From Myxococcales bacterium (lineage in GTDB: Bacteria; Lernaellota; Lernaellaia; Lernaellales; Lernaellaceae), in the NCBI GenBank assembly GCA_012517325.1, contig JAAYVF010000007.1, positions 1-64,000 on the forward strand: a stretch of 64,000 nucleotides of DNA, given 5' to 3'. The position numbers and the translations under genes were made by a program. Shown here piece by piece: positions 5,320-31,144 of the stretch (position 1 is the first letter of the stretch; the number at the start of each line of letters is the position of its first letter). The notes beneath the pieces were generated by a model. That model had not been told where the DNA came from. It saw only the letters and a list, made by a program, of their open reading frames with translations, and made no database searches.

Positions 5320-6356
5320 TCCGTCGATTTTTCCGTTTCGCGCGCCGCCAACTGGCCGCAGGCCGCCAGGATATCCTGCCCCCGCGGTTTGCGAACAATG
5401 ACGGTCAGTTGATGATCGAGCAGAATTTGTTGAAAGCGGCGCACACGCTCCTCGTTCGGCGGCGCGCACTCCGATCCGCTGAAGGGATTGGCGGCGATCA
5501 GGTTGATCTTCGGGCGCAAATCACCGACCAGCCGCGCCAGGCGGTGAGCGTCCTCGTCGGAATCGTTGACCCCGGCCACCAGCGAGTATTCGAACGTGAT
5601 CCGTTTGCGATGCGGCACCGGAAAGCACCGGCAGGCGTCGATTAATTCCTTCAACGGGTATTTGCGGTTGGCGGGCACCAGGCGACTGCGCGTCTCGTCA
5701 TCCGCAGCGTGCAGGCTGACCGCCAGGCTGACGTCGACCCGCCTTCCCAGTTCCAACATTTGCGGCACCAGCCCCACCGTCGAGAGCGTCAGTTTGCGCG
5801 GGCTCAGGTTGTTGCCGTGATCGTCGTAAAAGATTTTCACGGCGGCGACGACGTGGTCGAGGTTGTCGAGCGGCTCGCCCATGCCCATCAGCACGACGTT
5901 GCTGATGCGCCGTGCGGGCAGAAGGCGCTGGGCCGCGTTGTACTGTTCGACGATCTCCCCGGGCGTCAGGTTGCGGGTCAGACCCAGGGTGCCCGTGCGG
6001 CAGAAGCGGCACCCCCAACGGCAGCCGACCTGCGAGCTGATGCACAGCGTCACCCGGCCTTCCTCCGGGATGTATACGCTTTCGATGCGCTGCCCGTCGG
6101 GCAATTCGAATAAAAACTTGCGGGTGCCGTCCGCGCTTTCCTGAACGTCCAGCACCGGAAACCGCAGGATGAAGAATCGTTCTTCCAACCGCTCACGCAG
6201 ATCCTTGGCGATATCGGTCATTTCAGCGAAGGAAGCCGCGTCCTTTTTGTACAGCCAGGTGAAAAGCTGTTGCGCGCGGAATGGTTTCTCGCCCATCTCC
6301 GTCAATGCGGCGACGAGTTCCTGCCGCGTCAGGCTTTTAATGCATTGCCGGCTCAT
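5316..6356 (-). CDS. rlmN: Dual-specificity 23S rRNA/tRNA adenine-C2 methyltransferase
   Basis: A 346-residue radical SAM enzyme expected to methylate C2 of A2503 in 23S rRNA and of A37 in some tRNAs. The iron-sulfur triad is in CRWGCRFC near residue 118. The motifs MGMGEPLDN, LSTVGLVP and SLHAADDE are typical of RlmN, and the C-terminal AACGQLA contains the methyl-carrying cysteine. The N-terminal RQELVAALTEMGEKPFRAQQ helix region is the rRNA-recognition accessory domain. The ATG overlaps the stop of the upstream flavoprotein gene (ATGA), implying translational coupling. The stop codon overlaps that of the convergent 7TM-HD gene. Confidence 0.96.
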   Translation of the reverse strand: MSRQCIKSLTRQELVAALTEMGEKPFRAQQLFTWLYKKDAASFAEMTDIAKDLRERLEERFFILRFPVLDVQESADGTRKFLFELPDGQRIESVYIPEEGRVTLCISSQVGCRWGCRFCRTGTLGLTRNLTPGEIVEQYNAAQRLLPARRISNVVLMGMGEPLDNLDHVVAAVKIFYDDHGNNLSPRKLTLSTVGLVPQMLELGRRVDVSLAVSLHAADDETRSRLVPANRKYPLKELIDACRCFPVPHRKRITFEYSLVAGVNDSDEDAHRLARLVGDLRPKINLIAANPFSGSECAPPNEERVRRFQQILLDHQLTVIVRKPRGQDILAACGQLAARETEKSTD

Positions 6357-7582
6357 CGCGCCCGCTCCGCCGCGGCTTCCCCGGCGACGAACCCGGTGGA
6401 AAACGCGGCCTGCAAGTTGTAGCCGCCCGTTACGCCGTCCACGTCGAGCACCTCGCCGCACAAATAAAGCCCCGGGCAAACCCGGCTGGCCATCGTGCGC
6501 GGGTCCACCTCGTCGAGCACGACGCCCCCGGCCGTCACCAGGGCTTCGTCCCAACCGCGGTTGCCGGTCACCGCGAAGCGCAAATCCTTGCACAATTTGC
6601 CCAGCGCCGTGCGCGTCACTTTGCCGACCTCGGCGCAGCGCTGTCGCGGATCGAGCTGCAACCGCGACACGAACAAGGGAATGATCGCCTGGGGCAACAG
6701 CCCGTTGAGCACGTTCTGCAGCGGCGCGCGGCCGTCTTTTTCCAGGTCGCGCCGCAGCCGGGCGTCGAGCTGGGCCGGATCGAGCGCCGGTTTGAAGTCG
6801 AGCGAAATGACGGGATCGGCCAGGTCGAGCGCCTGATAGGAAAGGTCCACCGGCACCGCCCCGCCGAGCGAGGTGTTTTCCAGCAGCGCCTCGCCGAAAC
6901 CGGCGGCGACCTTGCGTTTGCCGTCCAACAAGGTCACGCCGACGTTGTGCAGCAGGATTTTCAAGGGGGCCTGGGGATTATCGATGCTCAATGGAACGAG
7001 CGCGGGCCGCGGCGGCGTCAACTTGTGCCCCAGGCGGGAGGCGAAACGAAAACCGTCGCCGGTCGAGCCGGTGCGCGGATAGCTCTTGCCGCCCGTCGCC
7101 AGAATCAATCGATTGGCCTGGATCCTGCCCCCCGCCAACTGCAGCAAAAAGCCCTTTTCCAGCGCGTCGATGGCCCGCACTTCGGTTTCGGTCCGCACCG
7201 CGCCGCCTTCGCCGCGCGCGTAGCGATACAGGGCGTTGACGACATCCAGCGCCTTTCCCGACTGCGGAAAAACGCGCCCGCCGCGCTCGACGACGCACGG
7301 CACCTGACGCTTTTCCAGCAGTTCGATCAGATCGCGGGAAAAAAAGCGGGAAAAGGCGCCGCGCAGAAATTCGCCGCCGCTGCGGTAGCCCTCGACGAAC
7401 AGCTCGACCGGCTTGTCGTTCGTCAGGTTGCCGCGTCCCTTGCCGGCGATGCCCAGTTTGCGGCCCACCTGATGCATTTTTTCCAGTACCAGGACCTTGG
7501 CGCCGGCGCGCGAAGCGGCCCCCGCCGCCAGCAATCCCGCCGCGCCGCCGCCCACGATGACGATGTCCCACTGTTCCATCAT
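6353..7582 (-). CDS. HI0933/YhiN-family FAD-dependent oxidoreductase (BaiN-like)
   Basis: A 409-residue flavoprotein. The N-terminus has the dinucleotide-binding motif IVIVGGGAAGLLAAGAAS (residues about 6-23) followed by VLEKMHQVGRKLGIAGKGR. The middle has RLILATGGKSYPRTGSTGDG, and the C-terminus ends in the second FAD motif, GLYLCGEVLDVDGVTGGYN. This is the HI0933/YhiN architecture; most members have no proven physiological reaction. Three in-frame starts are close together (7591, 7582, 7579); I use the tandem ATGs at 7582. The stop overlaps the rlmN start, so the two genes form an operon. Confidence 0.9.
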   Translation of the reverse strand: MMEQWDIVIVGGGAAGLLAAGAASRAGAKVLVLEKMHQVGRKLGIAGKGRGNLTNDKPVELFVEGYRSGGEFLRGAFSRFFSRDLIELLEKRQVPCVVERGGRVFPQSGKALDVVNALYRYARGEGGAVRTETEVRAIDALEKGFLLQLAGGRIQANRLILATGGKSYPRTGSTGDGFRFASRLGHKLTPPRPALVPLSIDNPQAPLKILLHNVGVTLLDGKRKVAAGFGEALLENTSLGGAVPVDLSYQALDLADPVISLDFKPALDPAQLDARLRRDLEKDGRAPLQNVLNGLLPQAIIPLFVSRLQLDPRQRCAEVGKVTRTALGKLCKDLRFAVTGNRGWDEALVTAGGVVLDEVDPRTMASRVCPGLYLCGEVLDVDGVTGGYNLQAAFSTGFVAGEAAAERAR

Positions 7583-7680
7583 GGCGGGCATCCTAGCGAC
7601 GGCGTCCGCCCTTTTCAACGCCCCCGGTTCGATCCGCCCGCCAACCGTGCTAAGCTGGGCCAAACAGGAAAGGACGTCCC

Positions 7681-8460
7681 GTGCCGCTGCCCGACGATTA
7701 CGAAGCGAAAAAAAACCGGGAGATCGCCTGGCACGAACAGTCGCGGGATCCACACCCGGGCCTGCTCAAACGGATTTTGTTTTCGCCCCTGATCACCAAC
7801 GCGGCGCGCGATCGTTACACCTACGACGCCGCCAAGCGCGAAATGACCGCCTTCAGCCGCCGCTATCACCCGCGGCCGATCGAGTCCCTGCTGATCGCCC
7901 CCTGCGGCAGCGGCGAGGATTATCCCTATCTGCGGGCTCTGGCGCCGCGGATTCACGGGATCGACCTGGCCGCCGCCGCGACGGCCCAGTGCCCGCCGGA
8001 GATGATCACGCGGGCCGGCGACATTCTCGCCTCCGGCTATCCCGACGATTCGTTCGATCTGATTGCCAGTCCGCTCTTTTTTCACCATTTGCTGAAAATC
8101 GGCTTCGCGCCGTTTCTGGCGGAATTCCATCGGCTGCTCAAACCCGGCGGGTCGCTGATCATTCTCGAGCCGTCGCTGTATTACCCGCTGAACATCCTCA
8201 CCCGCCCGCTCAAGCGCCTCTTGCACAATCCCTACGGCGAAGTGGCCGACGAGGATCCGTTCCCTCCGGGTCGCCTGCTTTCCGCATTGGCCGCAAGCGA
8301 CTATCGGGATCTGCGCTGGCAAGCCGCGACTTACAGCCATCCGGCGATTTTCGTACCCCTGGCCAAAGCCGTCACCTGGCTCATGAGGCCCTTTTTGGCG
8401 GCGCGGCCGTTTCGTTATTTCGGTTGGTTGATTCTGTACGGCGCGCGCAAGCCCGGCTGA
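7681..8460 (+). CDS. Class I SAM-dependent methyltransferase (substrate unknown)
   Basis: A 259-residue protein with a GTG start, supported by AGGAAAGGA 6-12 nt upstream. The Rossmann methyltransferase motifs are LIAPCGSGEDYPYL (motif I, with Cys in place of the usual Gly, near residue 72), the acidic HGIDLAAA, then DDSFDLIASPLFFHH, and FHRLLKPGGSLIILEP (motif IV/V). The C-terminal half contains a hydrophobic, basic region (PLNILTRPLKRLL, VTWLMRPFLAA) that suggests a lipid or membrane-near substrate, but this is inference. Divergent from the flavoprotein gene. Confidence 0.85.
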   Translation: MPLPDDYEAKKNREIAWHEQSRDPHPGLLKRILFSPLITNAARDRYTYDAAKREMTAFSRRYHPRPIESLLIAPCGSGEDYPYLRALAPRIHGIDLAAAATAQCPPEMITRAGDILASGYPDDSFDLIASPLFFHHLLKIGFAPFLAEFHRLLKPGGSLIILEPSLYYPLNILTRPLKRLLHNPYGEVADEDPFPPGRLLSALAASDYRDLRWQAATYSHPAIFVPLAKAVTWLMRPFLAARPFRYFGWLILYGARKPG

Positions 8461-8481
8461 CGGGCCGCCGCCGGACCTCGG

Positions 8482-11400
8482 CTAGTCGTCCAAAACCTCG
8501 CGGACTTTACGCACCAACACCTCGATCGAAAAAGGCTTCGCGATGAAGTTCGTGTCCGGATCGAGCGCGCCCTGGTGCTCGATGATGTTTTCCGTGTAAC
8601 CGGACATGAACAGTACGCGCAATTCGGGGTCCCGTTCCCGCAAGCGATCATAAAGCTGGCGCCCGTTCATGTGCGGTATGATGACGTCGGTCAACAACAG
8701 ATGAACCCGTTCGGGCAGATCCTGCGCCAAGAGAAAAGCTTCTCCGCCGCTCGCCGCGGTTTTAATTTTGTAGCCCTGCCGCTCCAGAACCTTCTGCGCC
8801 AGGTTACGCACCATTTCCTCATCCTCGACCAGAAGAATCGTTTCCCCGCCGCGTGGCGTATCCCGCCGGACGGACGTCGCGTACGCCTCCGGCTGGCCGC
8901 TCGCCAACGGCAGGTAGATTTTAAAGCTCGATCCCTTTCCCGGGCGCGAGGCGACATCAATGAATCCCTCGTTTTGCTTGACGATGCCGTACACGGTGGA
9001 AAGTCCGAGGCCGGTGCCCTTGCCGATTCCCTTGGTGGTGAAAAACGGCTCGAACAATCGCGCTTGTACTTCTTCGCTCATGCCGCAGCCGTTGTCGGTG
9101 ACCCCCAGCATGACGTAATCGCCCGCTTTCACGTCGATGTGCCGGCGGCAGAATTCCTCGTCGATGATCCGATTCGCCGTTTCGATCACCAGCTTGCCGC
9201 CGCCGGGCATGGCGTCGCGCGCGTTGACCGCCAGATTGATCAGAATCTGCTCGATCTGGCTCGGGTCGGTGCGGACAAAACCGAGGTCGGGCGCCGGCCG
9301 AAACAGCAGCGAAATGTCCTCGCCGATCAGCCGTTCGATCATCCGGGTGGAATTGGCCACCAGTTCGTTCAAATCGATGATCTTGGGGTCGATGATCTGT
9401 TTGCGCGAAAAGGCCAGCAATTGCGCGGTCAGCGCGGAAGCGCGATCGGCCGCTTTTTTGATTTCCGACAGGTCGTTGTAGATCGGATCCTGCCGGCTGA
9501 CGGAACCGAGAATGATTTCCGCGTAACCGGTGATGCCGGTCAGAATGTTGTTGAAGTCGTGCGCGATCCCGCCGGCCAGCTTGCCGATGGAATCCATTTT
9601 TTGCGCCTGGCGCAACTGCTCCTCGAATTGCCGCTTTTCCTCCTGCGCCTTGACGATTTCGGTGATGTCCTTCATGGCGCCCAGCAGGCGATAGGGCTTG
9701 CCGGTCTCGTCTTTTAAAAAAGTACCTCGGCTTTCGATGTGCAAATAAACGCCGTCGCGGCGGCGGAAACGATAAACGACCCGCAATTCGCGGCTGTTCT
9801 GTTGGGCTTCCGCCAATTCCGCCAGGACATCTTCCAGATCGTCGGGATGAACCATTTCCCGCCAGGCATCGAAATCAAACTGTTGAAACTCCTCCGGCGG
9901 GTAGCCGGAGATCGCTTCGATCGCGCCCGACCATTGGATCCGGCGGGCCTGCGGCTGATAATCGTAAATCAACTGTCCGGTGGCTTGCGCCGCCACGCGA
10001 TACCGTGCCTCGTTCTCTTCAATGAGATCGCTCGCCCGCTTGCGTTGAGCCAACCGCCAGATGCCTTCCATCATCAAGGTCAACTGTTTCACGTCGGTTT
10101 CATCGTATTCGTCGACTTTGTTGCCGACCCCGGCCAGCAAGACGATTTTATCGCCGTCGAAAACGGGAATGTTCATGTGCCGTCGGATCGGCACGTGGCC
10201 TTTTGGATAGCCTTTTTTCCACGGATGCGGCGCCGGGTAATCGTTGGTGATGATCGGCCGCCGCTGGCGAACCGCTTCCCCCCAAAGGCCGGTATCTTCG
10301 AGCCGATAGACCTGCGGTTTATCGATAAGCGCGCACTGGGCCATCGCGCTTTTCGTCCAGGCGTACATGGTCAGTGTGGTCTCGGCATCATCGAGCAACG
10401 CCAGATAGCCGATCGGACTGTCGGTCAAGCGGGCTCCCTGTTCGAGGGCATAGAGCATCAATTCCTCGAAGGACAACCCGGTTTTCTGATTGACCTCCAG
10501 TAACGCCGTCAAACGGGCCTCGTTCAGATGAACCGCTGCCTCGCTTTTCTTGCGACCGGTGATATCGCGCGCGATGACAAAAATTCCCTTGATCTCGCCG
10601 TCCTCGAGATACGGCGTGGAATAAACCTCGAGCGGTATCCGCTTGCCGTGGCGGTCGAGCATCGTCACTTCGAAAATGAATGTGCTGAAATCGCCGGCAA
10701 ACCGTTTGGCCATGCGCTGTTCTTCGGCGGCGATTTCTTCCGGAGGAAAGAAGGACCGCAGATTCACTTCCTTGATTTCCTCGGCATCGTAGCCGCTGAC
10801 CGTGAGGCCATGGCGATTGATGTAAATGATGCGGCCTTGCAGGTCATGAATGAAAATGATCTCGTTCGCCGTTTCGGTGATCAGCCGGTACTTTTCCTCG
10901 CTGCGCCGCAAGGCTTCCTCGGCATTCTTCCGGGCGGTGATGTCGACCAGCGTCGATTGAACCGCCGGCCGACCGCCAAGCATGATCTTGACGGAATAGG
11001 TTTCCACCCAAAAAATCCCGCCGTCCCGATGAACCCCCCGATATTCATATCGACCGAGGACGGAGGCTTCGTTCAATCGCCGCTGGTGGCGCTCCTGAAC
11101 GGCGATTCGATCCTCCGGATGAATCAGTTCGCTCATTTGCCACGGCGCCATCGCCAACAATTCCGCGATGGAATACCCGGACAAATCCGCCGTCGCCTGG
11201 TTGGCGAAAACGATCCGCCCGTCCTGGATGATGATCAACGCCTGCAATGATTGATCGACCAGCGCGTGATAGACCTCGCCCGCCCGGTTATCGTCCGGGG
11301 CTTCACGGAAAAGAAACAAATAACCGCCGGTCTCGCCCGGCGCCGGCGCTAGGCGGTTCGCTTCGACCGCGAAAAAACGTCGTTCGCCGGTCGGCGATAA

Positions 11401-15090: not shown

Positions 15091-16854
15091 ATGTCCCCAT
15101 TGCTGAGACGTTTTTTGTTTTTCGCCCTCTACGCGCTGCTGGTCGCCGGCCTGTTTGCCTGCGGCGGCCAGGATGACGACGACGATGATGCCGCCGCCGG
15201 CGACGATGATGACGACAACGACGATAACGATAACGATGACGACAACGACAATGACGACAACGATGACAACGATGACAATGACGATGCCTCGCCGACGCCG
15301 GATCCGTTGCGCATCGTCTTCGAGTTTCCGCCCGTGGCCGAATCCGGTGAGGATTATTCCTACCAATTCCAGGCCGAAGGCGGGCAACCGCCCTATCGCA
15401 ACTGGCAGGTGACCAACGGCGAACCGCCGGCGGGCCTGACCTTGGACGCCGCGACCGGCGAGTTGTCGGGAACCGCGGCGAACGAGGAAAAGCTGTACTA
15501 CTTCGTGATCGACGTCGAGGACTCGGCGGCCGAGCCGGCCCGCGCCCGCGAAGCGTTCGGCATCCGCGTCGGCGATCCGTCGCAACCCGGCCCGCTCTAC
15601 CTCAAGGCCCAGCACTACCAGGAAATTTACGATACGCGCCACAACTGCGACGGCCTGTCGGTGACCGCCGACAACCCGGACGACCCGAACGGCGACTACT
15701 GGTTCACCGACCTGGGCGACGCCTGCTTCATCCACGGCAATTCGTCGGCCGGCGCGGCTTATCGCTACGCCGTCGAACCAAGCGCGGCGGCGCTGGCCGA
15801 CGCGCGGTTGCACACGCGGGGGCTGGATCTGCTCAACCGCGTCAACGGCATTCCCGGCTTGATGTCCCGCAGCTACGTGCCGCAGGACGCGCCTTACGGC
15901 CCCAACGAATTCCAGACCTTTTACCCCGACTCCGAGAACCACGTCGGCGAAGGCGAATTCGCCGATTACTACTGGAAGGGCGATGTCAGCATCGATCAAT
16001 ACTCCGGCGCCCTGGTGGGCTTGTCGTTGCTGTACGATCTCGTCCCCGACGACGAGGTGCGCACGACGATCCGCCGCAACATCGTCGAGATCGCCGATTA
16101 CCTCTGGGACGGCGGCCTGATCATATACGACGCCGACGGCGAACCGACCACCTACGGCGACTTCCGCGGCTATTGGCTGGAAGGCTGGCCCGTGCCCAAC
16201 GGCCTGGGCGCGGCGGCCTGCCTGGCGTGGTTCAAGCTGGCCCACCACGTTTCGGGAGAGTCCCGGTTTCTCGATTACTACAACGAGTTGAAGGACGAGC
16301 GGCACTACGACTGGGTCGTCGCGAACACGCTGCTATTGTATCTGGGCTATCAAACCAAGCATTACAACGTGTACATGGGATTCGAGAACATGTTCACGCT
16401 GACCCGGCTGGAGGAAGACACCGCGCAAAAGGAATTCTGGGCCGACGCGTTCGCCCGCTGGTTGTGGATTTCCGGCGAACAACTGGCCTGGCGGCGCGCC
16501 GACGTGGAAGCCAATCCGACCTACACTTCCTGGTATCTCTACTCGACGGGCCGCCGCGATCCCGACGCGATCATGAAGTCCATCTGGGAAATGGACGTCT
16601 TCGTCGACGCCCCGCTGCGCGATCGCTACATCCAAAACAGCATCAATCCGGACATCGAGAAAAATCCCGAACGCCCCGAGCTGGCGCTCTACCCCCTGCC
16701 CGCCAACCTGCGCGTCCCCGACATGTGCATCTGGCACCGCACGCCGTACGCGCTGGACGGCGGCGACGACAACGGGCGCGAGCGCACCGGCCACGATTAT
16801 CTGTTGCCCTACTGGATGGGGCGTTACTACGGTTTCATCAGCCCGGATTGGTAG
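15091..16854 (+). CDS. Asp/Asn-linker lipoprotein with a putative Ig domain and helical-barrel-like domain
   Basis: A 587-residue predicted lipoprotein. The signal peptide ends in VAGLFAC (lipid Cys24) and is followed by about 40 residues of almost pure Asp/Asn. Then comes a He_PIG-type putative Ig domain (about 75-165), recognised by PPAGLTLDAATGELSGT. The remaining ~410 residues are alpha-rich with many Trp/Tyr (YWKGDVSIDQYSG, YWLEGWPVPNG), suggesting an alpha/alpha-barrel enzyme, possibly polysaccharide-active. The C-terminal YWMGRYYG matches the lipoprotein at 11791-13875. RBS GAGG lies about 8 nt before the ATG. It is 59 nt downstream of the methyltransferase and may share its transcript. 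Confidence 0.82.
   Translation: MSPLLRRFLFFALYALLVAGLFACGGQDDDDDDAAAGDDDDDNDDNDNDDDNDNDDNDDNDDNDDASPTPDPLRIVFEFPPVAESGEDYSYQFQAEGGQPPYRNWQVTNGEPPAGLTLDAATGELSGTAANEEKLYYFVIDVEDSAAEPARAREAFGIRVGDPSQPGPLYLKAQHYQEIYDTRHNCDGLSVTADNPDDPNGDYWFTDLGDACFIHGNSSAGAAYRYAVEPSAAALADARLHTRGLDLLNRVNGIPGLMSRSYVPQDAPYGPNEFQTFYPDSENHVGEGEFADYYWKGDVSIDQYSGALVGLSLLYDLVPDDEVRTTIRRNIVEIADYLWDGGLIIYDADGEPTTYGDFRGYWLEGWPVPNGLGAAACLAWFKLAHHVSGESRFLDYYNELKDERHYDWVVANTLLLYLGYQTKHYNVYMGFENMFTLTRLEEDTAQKEFWADAFARWLWISGEQLAWRRADVEANPTYTSWYLYSTGRRDPDAIMKSIWEMDVFVDAPLRDRYIQNSINPDIEKNPERPELALYPLPANLRVPDMCIWHRTPYALDGGDDNGRERTGHDYLLPYWMGRYYGFISPDW
15172..15285 (+). repeat. Asp/Asn codon repeat (linker copy 2)
   Basis: A GAY/AAY triplet tract encoding about 38 residues, nearly all Asp and Asn, with one short Ala/Gly break. 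It is low-complexity DNA prone to length change and assembly error. Confidence 0.9.
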
Positions 16855-21346: not shown

Positions 21347-21375
21347 TTGGCATCGGTTCCAATCTGTGTTATGAT
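21347..21375 (+). promoter_or_regulatory. Strong sigma-70 promoter for the GTPase pair, suggesting a leaderless transcript
   Basis: TTGGCA (21347-21352, 5/6), a 17-bp spacer and TATGAT (21370-21375, 5/6). The predicted transcription start near 21382 coincides with the ATG at 21383. Earlier in-frame starts (21347, 21371) would lie inside the promoter, and no Shine-Dalgarno is present, so this site decides the start of the next gene. Confidence 0.6.
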
Positions 21376-21382
21376 TTGTTTG

Positions 21383-23056
21383 ATGGTCAACAATACCCCC
21401 ACGGCAATACCGGAAGCTTCCAGCGCGAGTTGGGCCGACCGCATCGATGAAGGTATTTCGCTGCTCGGCGAATTACTGATCGCGGACTTGCCCTTTCCAT
21501 TGAACGGCCGCGCCGAAACATTGCTCTGCCTTTGCCATCATCATCGATTCCGCCGACGCACCGGCGGGGAGCTACCGCTCATCGGCATTCTCGGCAGTGC
21601 CAGCAGCGGTAAATCGACCCTACTCAACAGCATCGCCGGCGCGCCGCTCGCCAAGGTGACGCCCATTCCGCACCAAACGACCGGCGCGATCGTCGCGCTG
21701 CCCGTCGAACAGACCGGTCTGGCCGCGGACGATTCGTTTCTCCGCCCGTCCGTCAAACAAATTCAAATGGAAGCGTCGGCGGTGCGCGGGCTTTCCGGCG
21801 AGCCGGAGACCGCCATGGTCGTGCCCGCCTGGAGTCACCGCGACAAGCCGTTCTTGCTGATCGACCTGCCGGATATCGGCACCCTGGAAGCGCGCGAAGA
21901 ACATTTGGTGGCGCTGCGTATCCTGCCGTGGCTGGATCGGGTGATTTTGCTGGTCACCGAGGAATCATTCGCCCAGGCGGAACACGAAACCATCCGCGAG
22001 GCCCTGCGCCTGTTGCGGCCCGAACGGGCGCGCGCCGATCTGTTCGTCGTGCTCAATCGATTGCACGCCCACACCAGCGACGAGGAATTTCACTCCCGTT
22101 TGGAAAACCTTAAGGAATTCTGGGGCGAAGCGACGATCAGCACCCTGCCGCACCTGACGGGGAATGACGGCTTCAAAGCCGCGGAAGTGCTGCCGCTCGT
22201 TGCCGAGTCGCATCCCCGCATCGGTCGCGCAATGCTCGCCGCCATCCGCAATCTGGCCCAAGAAGTCGCCACGGAAACCGAAAGCCTGGCCGTGACCCGA
22301 CAGCGCGAACAGGAACGGGTCGCCGACCGCTTGCGGGATGAAATCGTCCTGGCCGCGCGCTTCAAAAAGGCGTTCTTCAGCGATGAATTCCGTAGGCGGC
22401 TCGATACTTTTTCGCCGTGGCGCACCTCGTTGAACCGCTGGCGCAAACTGCTGGGCGACGAGGCCGCCGCGAGCGGCGGCCTGGTGGACCTGTTTTCCGA
22501 AAGCGCCGTGCAAAAACACGTCGCGCAATCTCTGGCCGCGATTCAAACAACCGTGGCGCGGCAGATCGCGACGACCGCGACCGGCGACCGGCCGGCCGAA
22601 GCGCCACCGCCGGCCCCGCTCGACCTCCGCTCGACGGCGGCGGAAATCACCTCGCTCGTCGAGCAAATCAATCGGGAAGCGCGCCAGGACGTGGCCACGC
22701 TTCTGGAGGCGTTGGAGGAAAGGCACCGGCTGAAAGACCCGGTTTGGGGCACCGTCACCGCCGTGGCCTCCACCCTCTTCTTGCTCGATCTGGTCGTGCC
22801 CAGCCTGGGAACGTTGAGTTCCCTGACGCTGCTCGGCGCGCTGTCCGCGCTGGGTTTGGGCGGCATCTTCACCAGCGACCTGTTGCGCAAGGTTCGGACC
22901 GGTCGTTTGCGCGAGATGTTCGAAAGCTCCTTGCAAGGCATTCTGACCAAGGCGACCGATCCCTTGTGGCGGACGCCGGCGCTGAAAAAACTGGAGCTGC
23001 GAAACCTGACCCGGCGTTTGCAAAGCTGGGAACGCTCACTGCCCGAGGTGCGATGA
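21383..23056 (+). CDS. Dynamin-like/GTPase-domain membrane protein A of a tandem pair
   Basis: A 557-residue P-loop GTPase. G1 is GSASSGKS (residues 71-78), G2 probably HQTTG (about 95) and G3 DLPDIG (about 160). The expected N/TKxD of G4 appears as NRLH (about 220), lacking the base-specifying Asp. A long helical stalk-like region (about 285-445) is followed by two adjacent hydrophobic segments (about 460-510; WGTVTAVASTLFLLDLVV and TLLGALSALGLGG). This layout (G domain, helical stalk, paired membrane segments) is that of bacterial dynamin-like or GBP-like GTPases acting on membranes. No closer family is recognised. The stop overlaps the start of the second GTPase (ATGATG), so the two are made together. 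Confidence 0.72.
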   Translation: MVNNTPTAIPEASSASWADRIDEGISLLGELLIADLPFPLNGRAETLLCLCHHHRFRRRTGGELPLIGILGSASSGKSTLLNSIAGAPLAKVTPIPHQTTGAIVALPVEQTGLAADDSFLRPSVKQIQMEASAVRGLSGEPETAMVVPAWSHRDKPFLLIDLPDIGTLEAREEHLVALRILPWLDRVILLVTEESFAQAEHETIREALRLLRPERARADLFVVLNRLHAHTSDEEFHSRLENLKEFWGEATISTLPHLTGNDGFKAAEVLPLVAESHPRIGRAMLAAIRNLAQEVATETESLAVTRQREQERVADRLRDEIVLAARFKKAFFSDEFRRRLDTFSPWRTSLNRWRKLLGDEAAASGGLVDLFSESAVQKHVAQSLAAIQTTVARQIATTATGDRPAEAPPPAPLDLRSTAAEITSLVEQINREARQDVATLLEALEERHRLKDPVWGTVTAVASTLFLLDLVVPSLGTLSSLTLLGALSALGLGGIFTSDLLRKVRTGRLREMFESSLQGILTKATDPLWRTPALKKLELRNLTRRLQSWERSLPEVR

Positions 23057-24762
23057 TGGAAAGCGGCCGTCGCCTGCGGCAACTCAACGACGAATTGCAG
23101 CGCTTTCTGGCGTCGCCGGAACCGGCCGCCGTTCAGCCGTTGCACGGTCCGGACGATTTGATGGTCTGGTTTCTGCTGGGCGGCAAGGACGTCGGCAAGT
23201 CTTCGTTCCTCAACGCTCTCTTTGGCAAAACGATTAACGCCGAGCCGCGCGGCAGCGCCGAAGGCACCGCCCGCTTCGTCGCCTATCTCCACGAAGCCTA
23301 TCGCGCCGAATTGCAGAAACGCCTGGACGGACTGCCGATCGACATCGAATTCCAGTTGCACCAAAGCGAAGCCCTGCGCCAGCTTTGCGTGATTGACAGT
23401 CCCGATTTCGACAGTCGATTCGATCGCCACGTCAACCAGGTCCGCCGCGTCATCCAGGCCGGCGTGACCGACGGGGCGGTTCTCCTGGCCAGTCCCGCCA
23501 AATACAAAGACCGGCAATTCTGGCAGGCCTTCGAGAAACTGGCCGACGCGATCTCGCCCCAGCATATCCTGTTCGCCCTGACCAAGGCCGACTCGCTCGG
23601 CGACTACCTGGCGGAAGTACGCGCCGATTTCACCGCGACGATCGCCCGTCGCCTGGGCCGCTGGCAGGATCAGACCGCGACGAGCCGCCGCGACGAACCC
23701 GCGACCGCCGTCTTCCTGATCGATTCCCTCACGAAGAACTTCGACTTTCCCCGCTTGGAAGATCGCTTGTTGAGCCGGATGACGACCGCCGAGGTGCGCC
23801 GTGTCCAGGACGAAAATCAACAGCACGCGGCGGAATTGGGGCTGAATCAAATCCGCCGGCATTACCAATTGGACGAATTCCAAACGGCATTGAATCGCGC
23901 CGCCGATCCGGAACGCCAAGAGGAAATCTTCGACAGTTACTTCCCCGCCCCCTATTTCCTCCTGCTCGGCGAACGCTTGCGCAACCGGGAGGAAATCGGA
24001 CTCCGCCTCCGCCGCGGGCTGGCGGCAAACGCGGAGCATACCTTGGCCGGGTTCCCGACGATTCTGGGTGTGGGGCGCTGGTTCGGCTCGCTGCTGCCGT
24101 TTCGCCAGGCCGGGGGACAATTCGCCGACAATTTTGACGAACTCCGCCTTCCCGCCTCCTTTTTCCAGTGGGGACAGGAAAATCTGACCGATCGTTTACT
24201 GGCCGCGCGTCGCGAGACCGGCGCCGAACTGTTGCGGCAATGGCCGGAAATGACGGAGCGTTATCTGCACGATGAACATTCGATCGAAATCGAGCTGGCG
24301 CAGTGCGTGGCCGACCAGTTGCCGGCCGCCGGAAGGCGGCTGTTTTCGCGCCCGTTTCAAATACTCCTCAATTTGCCGGTCTATCTCTACGCGCTTTTCT
24401 TTCTGGTGCTGGTGTTTTATCCGGCCTTTATTCTATTACAGGCCTGGTCGATCTTTCCGGCGCCGCGTCTGGCCGACTGGCTGACTCTCGACAACGTCCG
24501 GATGTCGTTTTTCGGTTTTTTTGGTTATTACACCATTGCATCGTTTTACGTGGCGCGTCGCCGCCGAATGCAGCTCGGTCAGGTGATGGATGCTTTCATT
24601 CAGGACTCGCTCGGCGCGCTGGAAGATCGGTTGAAAGCTATGGTAGCTTGGCCAATCACTAGAATTTCCAGGGATTTCACGGTACTCGCCGCGTCGCTGC
24701 CGCCGCCCGGTGACGGCCGTCCGGAAACCAGTTTGAATTCCGAGGAAAAACGAGTAACTTAA
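23053..24762 (+). CDS. Dynamin-like/GTPase-domain membrane protein B of a tandem pair
   Basis: A 569-residue partner of the preceding GTPase, starting within its stop codon (a second ATG follows at 23056). G1 is GGKDVGKS (about 41-48), G3 is DSPDFDS (about 118, without the usual Gly) and G4 is an intact TKAD (about 178), so this copy keeps the guanine-specificity motif that copy A lacks. A helical middle region ends in two membrane segments (about 440-510; YLYALFFLVLVFYPAFILL and MSFFGFFGYYTIASFYVA) and a basic tail. The pair recalls two-subunit bacterial dynamin-like systems, where two GTPases co-assemble for membrane remodelling; here that role is inference. Confidence 0.72.
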   Translation: MMESGRRLRQLNDELQRFLASPEPAAVQPLHGPDDLMVWFLLGGKDVGKSSFLNALFGKTINAEPRGSAEGTARFVAYLHEAYRAELQKRLDGLPIDIEFQLHQSEALRQLCVIDSPDFDSRFDRHVNQVRRVIQAGVTDGAVLLASPAKYKDRQFWQAFEKLADAISPQHILFALTKADSLGDYLAEVRADFTATIARRLGRWQDQTATSRRDEPATAVFLIDSLTKNFDFPRLEDRLLSRMTTAEVRRVQDENQQHAAELGLNQIRRHYQLDEFQTALNRAADPERQEEIFDSYFPAPYFLLLGERLRNREEIGLRLRRGLAANAEHTLAGFPTILGVGRWFGSLLPFRQAGGQFADNFDELRLPASFFQWGQENLTDRLLAARRETGAELLRQWPEMTERYLHDEHSIEIELAQCVADQLPAAGRRLFSRPFQILLNLPVYLYALFFLVLVFYPAFILLQAWSIFPAPRLADWLTLDNVRMSFFGFFGYYTIASFYVARRRRMQLGQVMDAFIQDSLGALEDRLKAMVAWPITRISRDFTVLAASLPPPGDGRPETSLNSEEKRVT

Positions 24763-24804: not shown

Positions 24805-27141
24805 ATGGGAAGCATTTCATCTGAGGAAAATCAAAATCAAGAGAGAATGATTGCGATCGAGTTGCTTCGATTGCTCACCGAGCAGATGGATTTGCGTTCA
24901 TTCATCCAACTGGTTCTGACCCGAATTCAGGAATATCTTACTTGCGAAGCCGTGGGCATCCGCCTGCGCGAGGGCGACGATTTCCCGTATTTTAAAACAC
25001 AAGGCTTTCCCGCCGAATTCGTGGAAATGGAAAACTCCCTTTGCGCGCGCGACCTGAGCGGCCAACTGTTGTGCGATGAAATCGGCAATCCACTGCTCGA
25101 GTGCATGTGCGGCAACATCCTTTGCGGCCGCTTCGATCCGCAATTACCCTTTTTCACCCCGGCGGGTTCATTTTGGTGCAACAATACAACCCGGTTACTG
25201 GCCACGACCACCGAGGAAGAACGCCAGACCAAGACGCGCAATCGGTGTAATAGCGAAGGTTACGAGTCGGTGGCCCTGATTCCATTGCGCTCCAACGAAC
25301 AAACCTTCGGCCTGCTGCAACTCAACGACCGCCGTCCCGACATTTTTACCCGCGAAAAAGTCGAATTCATCGAATCGCTGGCGTCTCTCCTGTCGATGGG
25401 GCTGGCGATCAAACAACTGAACGAACGAATCGCGGGACGCGAACGTTTTCTCCGGCTGGTGATCGACAACGATCCGAATTGCATCTTCGTCAAGGATCTG
25501 AACGGCCGCTACCTGCTGGCCAATCGGGCCTTGGCCGAACTGTATCAGGTCGACGTACGGCATCTGGAAGGTCACACCGACCTGGAAATGACCGTCGACA
25601 TCCCTTCCTTACAGCTGGACACCGAGATTTATCGCCGGGATGACCGGGAGGTAATCGAAACCCAGCAAATCAAGCGCATTCCGATCGAGCCGTTCACCGG
25701 TAAAAACGGTGAAACCCGTTGGCTGAGCACGGTGAAAATCCCCCTGGAATTCGATCAGCGCGGCGATTGCGTCCTGGGCGTCGCGGTCGACGTGACCGAG
25801 GCGCAAAAAGTCCTGGCGGCGAAGGAGGAATCCGAACGGCGCTACCGGACCATTTTCGAGAATGCCGCCGACGCCATTTATATCGTCTCGAAAACCGGCT
25901 GCATTCTGGATGCCAATCGCCTGGCTTGTGAACGGCTGGGTTATACCAAGCAGGAAATGACGTCCCTGACGCTGGCGCAAATCGACACGCCGGAATTCTA
26001 TCAAGATGTGCCGGCCCATATGCAAGAATTGGAGCAAACCGGGGCGACATTCTTCGAAACCGTGCATCGTGCCAAGGACGGTCGCCTCTTTTCGATCGAA
26101 CTGAGCGCGCGGCACATCGATTACTACGGCGAGATCGCCATTCTGAGCATCGCGCGAGACATCACCGAACGGAAAAATCGCGAACAATCCTTGCGACTGG
26201 CGCGGGAAGAACTGGAAAAACGGGTCGAAGAACGGACCCGGGAGCTTTACCAGACCAACCTTCAGCTCTTACGCGAAATCGACAAGCAAAAACGAATCGA
26301 GCGCTCGCTTCGTTTTCGCGAGGATCATTTCAAACGCACCTTCGACCAATCGCCGATCGGCGCCGCGATCGTTTCGCTCGAATTCCGGTTTGTGCGGGTA
26401 AACGAGGAATTTTGTCGAATCACCGGCTACCAGGAGATCGAACTGTTGTCCATGGGCTTTCCCGAAATCACCCATCCCGACGATCTGGAACAGGACGTTC
26501 GCTACTGCCGGCAGTTGGCCGCCGGGGAAATCGATCACTATCAAATGGAAAAGCGCTACATCGCGAAAGACGGGAATGTGGTGTGGGTGCGACTGTCGGT
26601 GCGGCTGATGCGCGACGCCCAAGGCGACCCGCTCTACTTTCTGCCGATGGTTCAGGACATCGACAACCGCAAACAAATGGAAAAGGAACTGGCCGAAAAA
26701 CAGCGCAGCCTGGTCGAAAACAACTACCTGTTGGAACAAAAAAATACCGCGCTTCACGAACTGATGCAGCAAGTCAAGGATGAAAAAGAGCGAACCGAAA
26801 AGCAGATCCGGCAGCACTTGGAGCAATTCGTTTTCCCGTTGATTCAACGGCTCAAGACGGAGGATCGCCTTCCCAGTACACCGACGCTGGAATTGTTGGA
26901 AGATAATTTACACAACCTGGCCAAGACCCTGCCGCAAGACAAACAAAATCAGCTTCGGTCGCTCTCACGCCGGGAAATCGAGATCTGCAACATGATTCGC
27001 GGCGGTCTTGCCACCAAGGAAATCGCCGGCATCCTGAGTATCTCGCCGCGCAGCGTGGACACGCATCGCAACAAAATTCGCAAAAAACTGGGCTTGACGG
27101 GGAAGACGATCAACCTCGAGTCCTATTTGACGAATATCTGA
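24805..27141 (+). CDS. GAF-PAS-PAS-PAS sensor with C-terminal LuxR-type HTH
   Basis: A 778-residue one-component regulator with no kinase or receiver. A GAF domain (about 15-210) carries a cysteine-rich insertion (CARDLSGQLLCDEIG, LECMCGNILCGRFDP, then single Cys in SFWCNN and NRCNSEG). Three PAS domains follow (about 215-330, 345-455, 505-625), with a coiled coil at about 460-500. After another helical linker comes a LuxR/FixJ HTH (about 718-775) with LSRREIEICNMI and LSISPRSVDTHRNKI. The arrangement predicts a soluble, probably redox- or ligand-responsive DNA-binding protein. The RBS GGGGAGG is strong. It lies 42 nt after the GTPase pair on the same strand and could belong to that operon or control it. 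Confidence 0.9.
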   Translation: MGSISSEENQNQERMIAIELLRLLTEQMDLRSFIQLVLTRIQEYLTCEAVGIRLREGDDFPYFKTQGFPAEFVEMENSLCARDLSGQLLCDEIGNPLLECMCGNILCGRFDPQLPFFTPAGSFWCNNTTRLLATTTEEERQTKTRNRCNSEGYESVALIPLRSNEQTFGLLQLNDRRPDIFTREKVEFIESLASLLSMGLAIKQLNERIAGRERFLRLVIDNDPNCIFVKDLNGRYLLANRALAELYQVDVRHLEGHTDLEMTVDIPSLQLDTEIYRRDDREVIETQQIKRIPIEPFTGKNGETRWLSTVKIPLEFDQRGDCVLGVAVDVTEAQKVLAAKEESERRYRTIFENAADAIYIVSKTGCILDANRLACERLGYTKQEMTSLTLAQIDTPEFYQDVPAHMQELEQTGATFFETVHRAKDGRLFSIELSARHIDYYGEIAILSIARDITERKNREQSLRLAREELEKRVEERTRELYQTNLQLLREIDKQKRIERSLRFREDHFKRTFDQSPIGAAIVSLEFRFVRVNEEFCRITGYQEIELLSMGFPEITHPDDLEQDVRYCRQLAAGEIDHYQMEKRYIAKDGNVVWVRLSVRLMRDAQGDPLYFLPMVQDIDNRKQMEKELAEKQRSLVENNYLLEQKNTALHELMQQVKDEKERTEKQIRQHLEQFVFPLIQRLKTEDRLPSTPTLELLEDNLHNLAKTLPQDKQNQLRSLSRREIEICNMIRGGLATKEIAGILSISPRSVDTHRNKIRKKLGLTGKTINLESYLTNI

Positions 27142-27250
27142 TCGCCTCGCGAAGAAGACCCGACCGATCGGTGGGTCGCGACTGAAAACGGCGAAACGCT
27201 CCGTCGCTTGATCAGCCGCCGCCACCGTGAATCCTTTTGGGAGCGGACGG

Positions 27251-29956
27251 ATGTCGGCGGAAAGAAAAATCCGTGTCCTGATCGTCGAAGACGACAACCT
27301 GGCGGCGGAAGCGGCGAAAATCCTTCTGGAAGATACCGGGTATCTCGTGATCGGCCGGGCGGAAAACGGCGCCCGTGCGGTCGAGCTGACCCAATCGTTA
27401 AAACCCGACGTGATCCTGCTGGACATTCAAATGCCGGGGATGGACGGCCTGGCCGCCGCCCGGCGAATCAATGAGGTGCGACCGACCCCCCTCGTCGTGC
27501 TGACGGCTGACGACCGGCCCGAATTGGTGGCTGAGGCCGGGCGGGTCGGCGTCGGCGCCTTTCTGCGCAAACCGCCGAACGCCGAGGAAATGAATCGGGC
27601 GATTATCGTGACCCTGGCCCGCTTCGCCGACCTGACCGCCCTGCGTGAGTTGAACGAGCGAATCGTCGCCGAGATGGAGATCAGCGCCAAGCGGGAAAAT
27701 CAATACCATTCCATCATCCGGACCACGGTGGACGGTTTCTGGATGATGGATCTTGACGGGCGGATTCTGGAGGCAAATCAGGCGCTCGTCGAAATGCTGG
27801 GCTATTCCATTCCCGAGCTGCTCGCGCTGCGAGTTCAGGACATCGAAGCGCCGGAGACGGCCGGCGAAACGCGAGAACACATCGCCGCGGCCGGCCGATC
27901 GGGAAAGGCCCGTTTCGAGGCTCGCCTGCGGCACAAGGATGGACGAATTCTCGCCGTTGAAATCAGCATGAATATCCTCGCCGGCGAGGAAAAGTACATC
28001 GTCTTTGCCCGGGACAGCACCGATCGGCGGCGGGCCGAACAGGCCTTACGGGAAAGCGAGCAGCGTTATCGCGAGCTGTTCGAAAACGCGCCGGTCGGCA
28101 TCTTCGCCACGACCTCCGATGGCCGGGCGATCCTGATCAATCCGATGATGGCGCGCATTCTGGGTTACTCCTCGATCGCGGAAACACTCGCGCATTACAC
28201 CGATCTGGCCCGGCAGTTGTACGTGCGACCGGAACGCCGCGCGGAGTTGGTCCGACAACTGGCGCAAGATGGGAAAGTGGAAAATTTCGTCTATGAGGCC
28301 CTCACCGCGGACCGGCGGCGCATCTGGATCGGAATGAATGCGCGCATCGGCCGGCGACAACCCGACGGCAGTTTCATCATCGAGGGTTTCGCAACCGAAA
28401 TCACCGACCGCGTCAAAGCCGAAGCGGCGTTGAAAAAGTCCGAAACCAAATTTATGAAAATATTTCAGTCCAGCCCGATCATCATGGCGTTATCGACCAG
28501 CACCGACGGGATTTTTATCGAGGTGAACCAGACATTTCTGGATAAATTGGGCTATCGAAAAGAGGAAGTCATCGGCCATTCGTCGGTGTCGCTGGGGATC
28601 CTGGGGCCGGAAGATCGTCAAAACACCTTTCGTTTTCTTTCCACCACCGGTACGTTGAAAAACCTGGAGCTTTCGGTTCGCGGAAAGAGCGGCCAACTGA
28701 TCCCAGGCTTGTTTTCAGCCGAGTTCATCAAATTCGATGAGGAAAAAGTACTTTTGACCAGCTTTGTCGATCTTTCCGACCGCAAACGCGCCGAGGAAGA
28801 AAAGGCGAAATTGGAAGTTCAACTCCAACAAGCCATGAAAATGGAGGCGGTCGGCCGCTTGGCCGGCGGCGTCGCTCATGACTTCAACAATTTGTTGACG
28901 GGGATTTTGGGTTACGCGGACATGTTGCTGGCCGGCCTGGACCCGGGAAACCCGATTCATGAGGATCTGACCGAAATCCGCAAAGCGGCGGAAAGCGCCG
29001 CGAACCTGACCCGACAATTGTTGGCCTTTTCACGCAAGCAGTTGATCGAGCCGCAAATCATCGATCTCAACGAGTTGATCGCCAGTTTGCATAAAATGCT
29101 GGCCCGCCTGATCGGCGAAGATATTGAACTGGTCATCACCGCCGGAGACAAAATCGGACCGGTGAAAATCGATCCGGGCCAATTCGAACAGATTCTGATC
29201 AACCTGGCGATCAACGCTCGCGATGCCATGCCGGACGGCGGTCGCTTGACCATCGAAACAGCCAACATCGACCTGGATGAAGAATATTGCCGTCGGCAAG
29301 CTCAAATCTCGCCCGGACCTTTTGTGAGGTTGTCGATCAGTGACACGGGACACGGCATGAACAATGACGTGAAAGAACACCTTTTCGAACCGTTCTTCAC
29401 CACCAAACCGAAAGGCCGGGGAACGGGCCTGGGATTGGCGACGATCTACGGCGCCGTAAAACAATCCGGCGGCGCCATCGAAGTCGATTCCGAGGAAGGC
29501 CGGGGAACGACTTTCACACTATATCTGCCGCGCTTATCGGAGACGGCGGTACCGCTGAAGATGAACAAACCGCCGCTCGAAATTTCGGGCGGCGAGGAAA
29601 CGATCCTGGTGGTCGAGGACGAGAATATCGTTCGCGAACTGGCGATCAAATTTTTATCCAGTCTGGGTTATCGGGTATTGCACGCGCCGGACGGGAATCA
29701 GGCGTGCCAACTGGTTGAGAAATTCGCGGCGCCGATCGATTTGCTGATTACCGACATCGTCATGCCGGGAATGAACGGGCGACAATTGGCCGAAATATTG
29801 GTAAAAATTCATCCGGAGATGAAAGTGCTTTTTACCTCCGGTTATACGGAAGATGCGATTGTCCGCCATGGGATTATCGAAGAGGGTTTGAATTTTCTCG
29901 CCAAACCATACTCCCCTTATTCATTGGCAATTAAAATTCGGAAATTGCTCAAATAG
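27251..29956 (+). CDS. Hybrid histidine kinase: receiver-PAS-PAS-PAS-HisKA-HATPase-receiver
   Basis: A 901-residue soluble protein with receivers at both ends. The N-terminal receiver (about 5-122) has its Asp in VILLDIQMPGMDG near 57, so it likely accepts phosphate from an upstream kinase. PAS domains lie at about 145-265, 270-390 and 400-515. The kinase core has GGVAHDFNN (His about 542), NARDAMPDGG and GRGTGLGLATIYG. The C-terminal receiver (about 780-900) has its Asp in LLITDIVMPGMNG. I prefer the ATG at 27251 (GGGAG 8-12 nt upstream) to an in-frame GTG at 27227, which has no visible ribosome site. This looks like a phosphorelay integrator. Confidence 0.9.
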   Translation: MSAERKIRVLIVEDDNLAAEAAKILLEDTGYLVIGRAENGARAVELTQSLKPDVILLDIQMPGMDGLAAARRINEVRPTPLVVLTADDRPELVAEAGRVGVGAFLRKPPNAEEMNRAIIVTLARFADLTALRELNERIVAEMEISAKRENQYHSIIRTTVDGFWMMDLDGRILEANQALVEMLGYSIPELLALRVQDIEAPETAGETREHIAAAGRSGKARFEARLRHKDGRILAVEISMNILAGEEKYIVFARDSTDRRRAEQALRESEQRYRELFENAPVGIFATTSDGRAILINPMMARILGYSSIAETLAHYTDLARQLYVRPERRAELVRQLAQDGKVENFVYEALTADRRRIWIGMNARIGRRQPDGSFIIEGFATEITDRVKAEAALKKSETKFMKIFQSSPIIMALSTSTDGIFIEVNQTFLDKLGYRKEEVIGHSSVSLGILGPEDRQNTFRFLSTTGTLKNLELSVRGKSGQLIPGLFSAEFIKFDEEKVLLTSFVDLSDRKRAEEEKAKLEVQLQQAMKMEAVGRLAGGVAHDFNNLLTGILGYADMLLAGLDPGNPIHEDLTEIRKAAESAANLTRQLLAFSRKQLIEPQIIDLNELIASLHKMLARLIGEDIELVITAGDKIGPVKIDPGQFEQILINLAINARDAMPDGGRLTIETANIDLDEEYCRRQAQISPGPFVRLSISDTGHGMNNDVKEHLFEPFFTTKPKGRGTGLGLATIYGAVKQSGGAIEVDSEEGRGTTFTLYLPRLSETAVPLKMNKPPLEISGGEETILVVEDENIVRELAIKFLSSLGYRVLHAPDGNQACQLVEKFAAPIDLLITDIVMPGMNGRQLAEILVKIHPEMKVLFTSGYTEDAIVRHGIIEEGLNFLAKPYSPYSLAIKIRKLLK

Positions 29957-30742
29957 CCCACTTTTGGGACGTTCCAATCTGCAGGATAGAATAATCATAA
30001 TTAACAGAAGCACTTTGAATTTTTCACCCCGCCTTATAAATGATCTCAAGTCTCGTTTATTCAAATTTTGACCCTGAGTGACACATTTTTTGCGTATTTT
30101 TCATACGCATTGAATACGCATTCTTTCCGTGTTTTGCTTTAAGCGAATAAACCGATATGAAGAACAAGAAAGAAAAAAATTTTTAACGCGGCAAAGTCAG
30201 TGAAAAAAGGAAATAAAATTTTTCAATCCGAATTTTGGCTACTTTTCTTGTCCATTGACGGGTGAAAGCTCCAGTGGATTGTGGGGCTAAGGGATTGCAA
30301 ACTAATTATTTTTCCTGTGCCTTTCCATCGGATGCGGCAATCCATCGGAGGTTCAACGCGGGTACGGGCTGGTTTGATCTCGTGATCGGACACATCGCCG
30401 GTAAAATTGGAAACAGCGGCGGAGATCGGCAAAAAGCGAATCGGATTCTTGGGCCGTCAATCGGAAGGAACAGGCGACGTTTTTGAATCGGAATCGCCGT
30501 GGGGAAAAATCGGAATTGGCAAAATCCCGCGATGTGACGGGTGGATCGGTCAGTACGAAAAAGAAAAGCCAATAAAATAGCGACACCCCGCTGGCTTTCG
30601 GCTCGAATTGATCGGTCCTCTCCTCACATTCCAACCGGCAATAGGAACGCCGGTGTTTTTTCGACCGGAGTGAAAATGGATTGCCGGTCGTCCAATCGGC
30701 CGGCTTCGCCTTTCCTGCGGAAGAAATGGGGGCCAAGAGCGA
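29957..30742. other. 786-bp gene-poor, partly AT-rich intergenic region
   Basis: No credible gene, tRNA or clear terminator is seen. The first 300 bases are much richer in A/T than the flanks and contain the ATACGCA repeats at 30091-30120. The remainder has only short open frames without recognisable protein character. It could hold a small RNA or regulatory region, but nothing can be assigned. Confidence 0.5.
30091..30120. repeat. Three copies of a 7-base motif (one inverted, two direct), possible operator
   Basis: TGCGTAT (30091-30097) is the inverse of ATACGCA, which recurs at 30103-30109 and 30114-30120. The first two can form a 7-bp hairpin with a 5-base loop; the last two are 11 bp apart, one helical turn. 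This fits a repeated binding site in an otherwise AT-rich gap. Confidence 0.45.
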
Positions 30743-31144
30743 ATGAACGCGGAAAAACAAGACAAAATCAGGGAAACGGTCTTACTCGTCGAAGACGAGG
30801 ATATCGTCCGCAAACTCACCCACAAAATCCTGACCCGGTTGGGTTACCAGGTTTTGGTGGCTTGCAACGGTTGCGACGCTTTCACCCAATACCAGAACCA
30901 TGCCGAGCCCATCGATCTGCTGTTGACCGACATGATCATGCCGAAGATGAACGGTCGAGATCTGTACACCAAGCTGAAGGAACAGCATCCCGACCTGAAG
31001 GTCCTGTTCATGTCCGGGTACAACGAAAGCATCCTGGCTCAACAGGACTCGGTGGCCGCCAACTTTTTCATTCAAAAGCCCTTTTCTTACGAATCGCTCG
31101 CGCTGAAAGTCCGCGAAGCGATCGAACAACCGGCGACCGCCTGA
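30743..31144 (+). CDS. Stand-alone receiver (CheY-like) response regulator
   Basis: A 133-residue single receiver domain with no output domain. It has the acidic pocket LLVEDED (about 14-20), the phospho-accepting Asp in LLLTDMIMPKMNG (about 62), the Ser/Thr-containing FMSGYN and the Lys in FFIQKPFS. The sequence is strikingly close to the C-terminal receivers of the neighbouring hybrid kinases (same ETVLLVEDED opening and PxMNG loop), so it probably arose from one of them. It may act as a phosphate shuttle or sink for these kinases. No clear RBS; there is only a purine-rich stretch upstream. Confidence 0.92.
   Translation: MNAEKQDKIRETVLLVEDEDIVRKLTHKILTRLGYQVLVACNGCDAFTQYQNHAEPIDLLLTDMIMPKMNGRDLYTKLKEQHPDLKVLFMSGYNESILAQQDSVAANFFIQKPFSYESLALKVREAIEQPATA

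Follow-up and report, generated by a model that had tools for sequence, protein, structure and literature searches.

Tandem dynamin-like GTPase genes with an unequal G4 motif and an aspartate at the G3 glycine position

Bacterial genes for dynamin-like proteins are described as coming mostly in pairs (PMC6104087). In Campylobacter jejuni, GTP hydrolysis by Cj-DLP1 and Cj-DLP2 is negligible when each protein is alone and becomes significant once they form a 2:2 tetramer (PMC6104087). The cyanobacterial Tandem A and Tandem B dynamin-like proteins (BDLPs) are encoded by consecutive genes of strongly different sequence, for which regulation through a hetero-oligomer has been proposed (PMC5827413); the two units are fused in a single protein in DynA of Bacillus subtilis, which delays phage lysis (PMC8844932). 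We describe here a pair of this general kind whose asymmetry is written in the sequences themselves.

The gene pair and its fold

The window, i.e., the whole stretch of 64,000 nucleotides that was analysed, carries two dynamin-like genes, called A and B below, in the following setting:

Up to 21304: gene for a PAS hybrid histidine kinase, the next gene upstream of A
21347..21375, + strand: promoter-like sequence TTGGCA-17-TATGAT, directly before the ATG of A; chance expectation 0.9 per 4 kb
21383..23056, + strand: gene A, dynamin-like protein of 556-557 aa, ending with TGA at 23056
23053..23056, + strand: ATGA, stop-start overlap of A and B (4 bases; translational coupling)
23053..24762, + strand: gene B, dynamin-like protein of 568-569 aa; alternative start ATG at 23056
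From 24805: gene for a GAF-PAS protein with a C-terminal LuxR helix-turn-helix, the next gene downstream of B

The open reading frames confirm the two genes and the 4-base ATGA overlap reported in a preliminary description of this DNA, and the neighbours are those it had named, a sensor kinase gene on one side and a LuxR gene on the other. Gene A has three possible starts, namely, TTG at 21347 (the mechanical start of the open reading frame), ATG at 21371, and ATG at 21383; the last (or the one at 21371) is likelier than the TTG. Both genes are real, as relatives carry them free of stop codons, with identities of 46-48% for A and 40-43% for B. An ATGA or TGATG overlap is found in all four pair-bearing genomes of the window's phylum and in most pairs from Planctomycetota.

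Assigning the two proteins to a family from sequence profiles was not straightforward. The Pfam family Dynamin_N matches A with 29.8 bits, above its cut-off of 27, and B with 19.1 bits, below it; across the family, 18 of 19 members match it at E<=0.01. The best Pfam match of A is MMR_HSR1, NCBIfam returns matches restricted to the P-loop (Era and similar GTPases), and a joint sequence profile of the A and B families aligns with mitofusin 2 across and past the G domain, and with Nostoc BDLP1 over the helical region. Weak matches to NB-ARC, DnaB, and ABC_tran were set aside as P-loop or chance matches. We built AlphaFold2 models from each window protein together with 19 or 21 relatives. Mean pLDDT is 61 for A, whose model is poor outside the G domain, and 73 for B; both models are all-helical after the G domain, with good confidence in B at residues 240-310 and 510-550 and poor confidence in A after residue 340. 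When both models were searched against the PDB with Foldseek, the top matches were dynamin-superfamily proteins (E down to 2e-8 for A and 3e-6 for B), among them MxB, DRP1, mitofusin, EHD, IniA, and the Campylobacter pair 5oxf/5owv. Compared with known dynamins over their full length, both models have low TM-scores (0.2-0.3), so that the evidence, coming mainly from the G domain, supports the family and not the detailed architecture.

Hydropathy places a single long hydrophobic stretch at residues 453-501 of A, which could form a hairpin, and a strong segment at residues 434-470 of B followed by a weaker one near 484-503 that is clearer in relatives; by the same measure, the window pair and almost every relative have C-terminal hydrophobic segments. 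A and B thus look like membrane-associated members of the dynamin superfamily as far as the models go, in line with their preliminary description as large P-loop GTPases of dynamin type. The helical stalk and paired membrane segments that were also proposed hold in part: the hydrophobic segments are there, and a stalk is predicted with good confidence in B only.

One could also read A and B as soluble GTPases with a housekeeping role, akin to Era and Der, that lie side by side by chance. Indeed, when the PDB is searched by sequence without structure, Der/EngA, Era, and EngB-like GTPases match best, over the P-loop, and the MMR_HSR1 match of A points the same way. However, those matches span about 40 residues, and each protein continues for roughly another 300 residues, which include helices and conserved hydrophobic segments; the structure matches are dynamins, and the pair is missing from most of the genomes sampled. 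We give this reading almost no credence.

Unequal G4 motifs and a shared G3 change

The two G domains differ from each other, and from those of known dynamins, at defined positions:

21593..21616, + strand: A, G1 (P-loop) GSASSGKS, intact
21863..21874, + strand: A, G3 DLPD (DLPDIG), Asp where Gly is usual
22055..22066, + strand: A, G4 site NRLH, without Asp
23179..23202, + strand: B, G1 (P-loop) GGKDVGKS, intact
23395..23406, + strand: B, G3 DSPD (DSPDFD), Asp where Gly is usual
23581..23592, + strand: B, G4 TKAD, canonical

The loss of the G4 Asp in A and its retention in B, as first described, are borne out by both sequences. The initial remark that B lacks the G3 Gly was correct and incomplete, as it implied B only and A lacks this Gly as well. 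We then counted both positions in the A and B proteins of related loci; kinship among the sequences makes these counts non-independent, although a number of deep lineages are covered. None of the 33 A proteins has the G4 Asp, vs 35 of 36 B proteins, and the G3 Gly position is occupied by Asp in all 69 (33/33 A and 36/36 B), so that the DxPG usual in bacterial dynamin-like proteins is absent from the window pair and its relatives and DxPD stands in both partners. The sole B protein with a replaced G4 Asp (ETKAT) is encoded at L074:1410-3056. Among the controls, IniA, Cj-DLP1, and Cj-DLP2 carry DxPG together with the G4 Asp, and BDLP1 carries DxPG. The combination of DxPD with a one-sided G4 loss was not found in the known proteins checked, nor did we find a description of it in the open-access literature searched.

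The A-then-B order and the one-sided G4 loss recur together in more than 30 loci, which is more than chance. From these sequences, the G4 asymmetry is an old property of the A-B family, kept over deep time, and it fits a hetero-oligomer with one non-canonical subunit. Protein A is not decaying, since all A proteins examined retain the P-loop and conservation among relatives is no lower for A than for B.

Several readings of this signature have to be weighed. In the plainest one, A and B would be an ordinary dynamin pair in which the G4 change of A is neutral, the base being recognised through other residues, and the two subunits would be GTPases of equal standing, like Cj-DLP1/2. Altered G4 motifs are tolerated by some large GTPases, e.g., the GBPs, and the universally intact P-loop of A would suit such a reading, as would the fact that pairing is normal for bacterial dynamin-like proteins (PMC6104087). 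Against it, the G4 loss falls on one partner and is complete there in lineages far apart, and Cj-DLP1, Cj-DLP2, and IniA all retain the Asp; we consider it unlikely, with a modest chance of being right. The other one makes the pair a two-fuel machine, with A running on another nucleotide such as ATP, in the manner of the EHD proteins, which are ATP-using dynamin relatives. Protein A does retain the P-loop and the switch-I Thr and never has the guanine-reading Asp, and EHD structures are among the fold matches; a relaxed or absent specificity, however, accounts for the same data, and we regard a second fuel as decidedly improbable.

The reading we favour, and find rather probable, is that A and B would form a heteromeric membrane-remodelling machine in which B is the GTP hydrolase and A a regulatory partner with relaxed nucleotide specificity. 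A more far-reaching version, possible and put forward tentatively, would make this widespread branch of paired dynamins an asymmetric heterodimer, where A no longer recognises guanine and acts either as an activator of B built into the pair or as a partner that runs on a different fuel. As DxPD is found in both subunits, it could also be that neither A nor B hydrolyses GTP in the usual way.

Occurrence, co-inheritance, and gene neighbourhood

The pair is present in four of the seven genomes examined from the window's phylum. One of the three genomes without it is 99% complete, so that the pair is not universal in the phylum. Scanning genome contigs with a single B protein gave no match; a profile built from four B proteins brought up another 22 loci, most of them in Planctomycetota and largely in Phycisphaerae, by a scan that used the peptide LGGKDVGK, so that the uniformity of the B P-loop in this set is partly selected by the search. 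Nineteen of the 22 have A directly upstream of B (in one case 0.8 kb away), in two B lies where the contig ends, and in one no A could be detected. In this last locus (L038), the B gene lies at 7641-9020 with 7.6 kb of DNA upstream; its B is possibly solo, or its A very diverged.

In a wider sample, B was found in 18 of 386 genomes at E<=1e-6. In ten loci from this sample, the first gene fits the A profile better and the second fits the B profile better; one of the ten (L067) apparently comes from the genome that also gave L021, as the contigs are equally long and the G domains identical. Every genome with an A match above 50 bits is also among those with B; A-only matches below about 40 bits, which resemble small GTPases, were left out of the counts. 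Altogether, the pair extends over several bacterial phyla; it is found in about 20 Planctomycetota loci and in at least seven further bacterial families, always as A then B.

In trees of the G domains, 24 A proteins form one clade (support 99) and 26 B proteins another (97). The deeper members sit on long branches that the trees do not resolve; an AU test does not reject one common ancestor for all A proteins (p = 0.445). Path distances in the A and B trees correlate with r = 0.97, a value that 0 of 2000 permutations reached. The pair is inherited as a unit; this mirror-tree correlation is a measure of co-inheritance and says nothing on physical contact. Of the A-B-LuxR order, whose conservation in relatives had been proposed as a check, the A-B part is kept, and a LuxR gene beside the pair does not recur.

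From its position between kinase and LuxR genes, the system had been proposed as possibly signal-controlled. The window region 24805-31144 is a signalling cluster made of the GAF-PAS-LuxR protein, a response-regulator/PAS/kinase hybrid, and a lone receiver-domain protein. Beyond a few loci, no other gene is found repeatedly next to the pair. The promoter-like site ends 7 bases before the ATG of A, so that the message would be leaderless, and in a relative (L011) a TATGAT stands 6 bases before the ATG; this weakly suggests that the pair has its own promoter and is not obligatorily co-transcribed with the kinase gene. With kinase and LuxR genes that do not recur beside the pair and a promoter-like site just before A, the proposal of signal control is not upheld; since these neighbours are not kept elsewhere, we rejected a signal-controlled operon as a trait of the family.

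A separate observation concerns lipoprotein-like proteins with long Asp/Asn tracts (DDDDNDDNDND...) directly after the signal peptide, found at these positions:

15091-16854 of the window: Asp/Asn-tract lipoprotein-like protein
12527-14137 of L012: Asp/Asn-tract lipoprotein-like protein
5677-7647 and 11623-13332 of L013: Asp/Asn-tract lipoprotein-like proteins

The window and L012 copies are homologous, and the tract may be a lineage-wide surface linker.

The neighbourhoods of the pair also bear on another reading, in which the pair would be an anti-phage system delaying lysis. One has to keep in mind that such a role has a precedent in a fused dynamin pair, DynA (PMC8844932). Against it, PADLOC gave no convincing match for A or B (one weak P-loop match for A), and the 88 neighbour proteins are mostly metabolic or housekeeping, with few and non-recurring matches to defence models. 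Related copies were not found in viral contigs and plasmids, and co-inheritance is steady, not patchy as in islands. We thus hold an anti-phage function to be very improbable, and the link to phage protection drawn in the preliminary description finds no backing here.

Proposed working of the pair and comparison with known systems

We picture the favoured machine as follows. Two diverged paralogues of the dynamin superfamily would be made from one coupled message and, most likely, assembled together on the cytoplasmic membrane. B, which keeps the full set of base-reading residues, would probably be the subunit that hydrolyses GTP; A, which retains the P-loop and a switch-I Thr and has lost the G4 Asp, would probably bind nucleotide weakly or with no preference for guanine. 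The G domain of A may complete and regulate the active site of B, comparable to the heterotypic G-domain contact proposed for Cj-DLP1/2. Nucleotide-binding cycles would then move the helical stalks, with the C-terminal hydrophobic segments sitting in the membrane, and the outcome might be a membrane tethered, bent, or repaired by the pair. As guanine reading is lost in one subunit and kept in the other, the division of labour within a dynamin heteromer becomes directly testable, and the replacement of the G3 Gly by Asp in A and B alike suggests that the catalytic cycle is altered. Besides Planctomycetota, the family is found in phyla that have been little studied, and membrane remodelling is of special interest in these groups.

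The closest parallels are with other paired dynamins. Like Cj-DLP1/Cj-DLP2 (5oxf, 5owv; PMC6104087), A and B are encoded by adjacent genes and have a predicted dynamin fold; unlike them, with their DxPG and G4 Asp, the window pair has DxPD in both proteins and no G4 Asp in A, and sequence similarity between the two systems is low. The Tandem A/B proteins, including Nostoc BDLP1 (2j68), are likewise encoded by two consecutive, strongly diverged dynamin-like genes, whereas G3 of BDLP1 is DSPG, and a one-sided G4 loss is not reported for Tandem A/B in the accessible part of the source (PMC5827413). The mycobacterial IniA/IniC (PMC6715688; 6j72) also come from two dynamin-like genes in one operon, and IniA is a fold match of A; IniA differs in having DTPG and TKTD, and the ini operon is drug-induced and includes iniB, with no such neighbours here. 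With DynA, the window pair would share two dynamin units acting together on a membrane; DynA is fused, and its role in phage and antibiotic stress has no indication here.

A contrast also exists within the same genome, which encodes a separate canonical dynamin-like protein (contig C132 of G000, about 101468-103141; L087:3469-5142) of similar length, with a Dynamin_N score of 77.8 bits, DTPG at G3, and SKAD at G4, which does not belong to an A-B pair of this family. Calling the pair an undescribed system was, in the end, too strong, as paired bacterial dynamins are already known (PMC6104087, PMC5827413): the pairing itself is familiar, and the new part is the DxPD in both proteins together with an A protein that lacks the G4 Asp.
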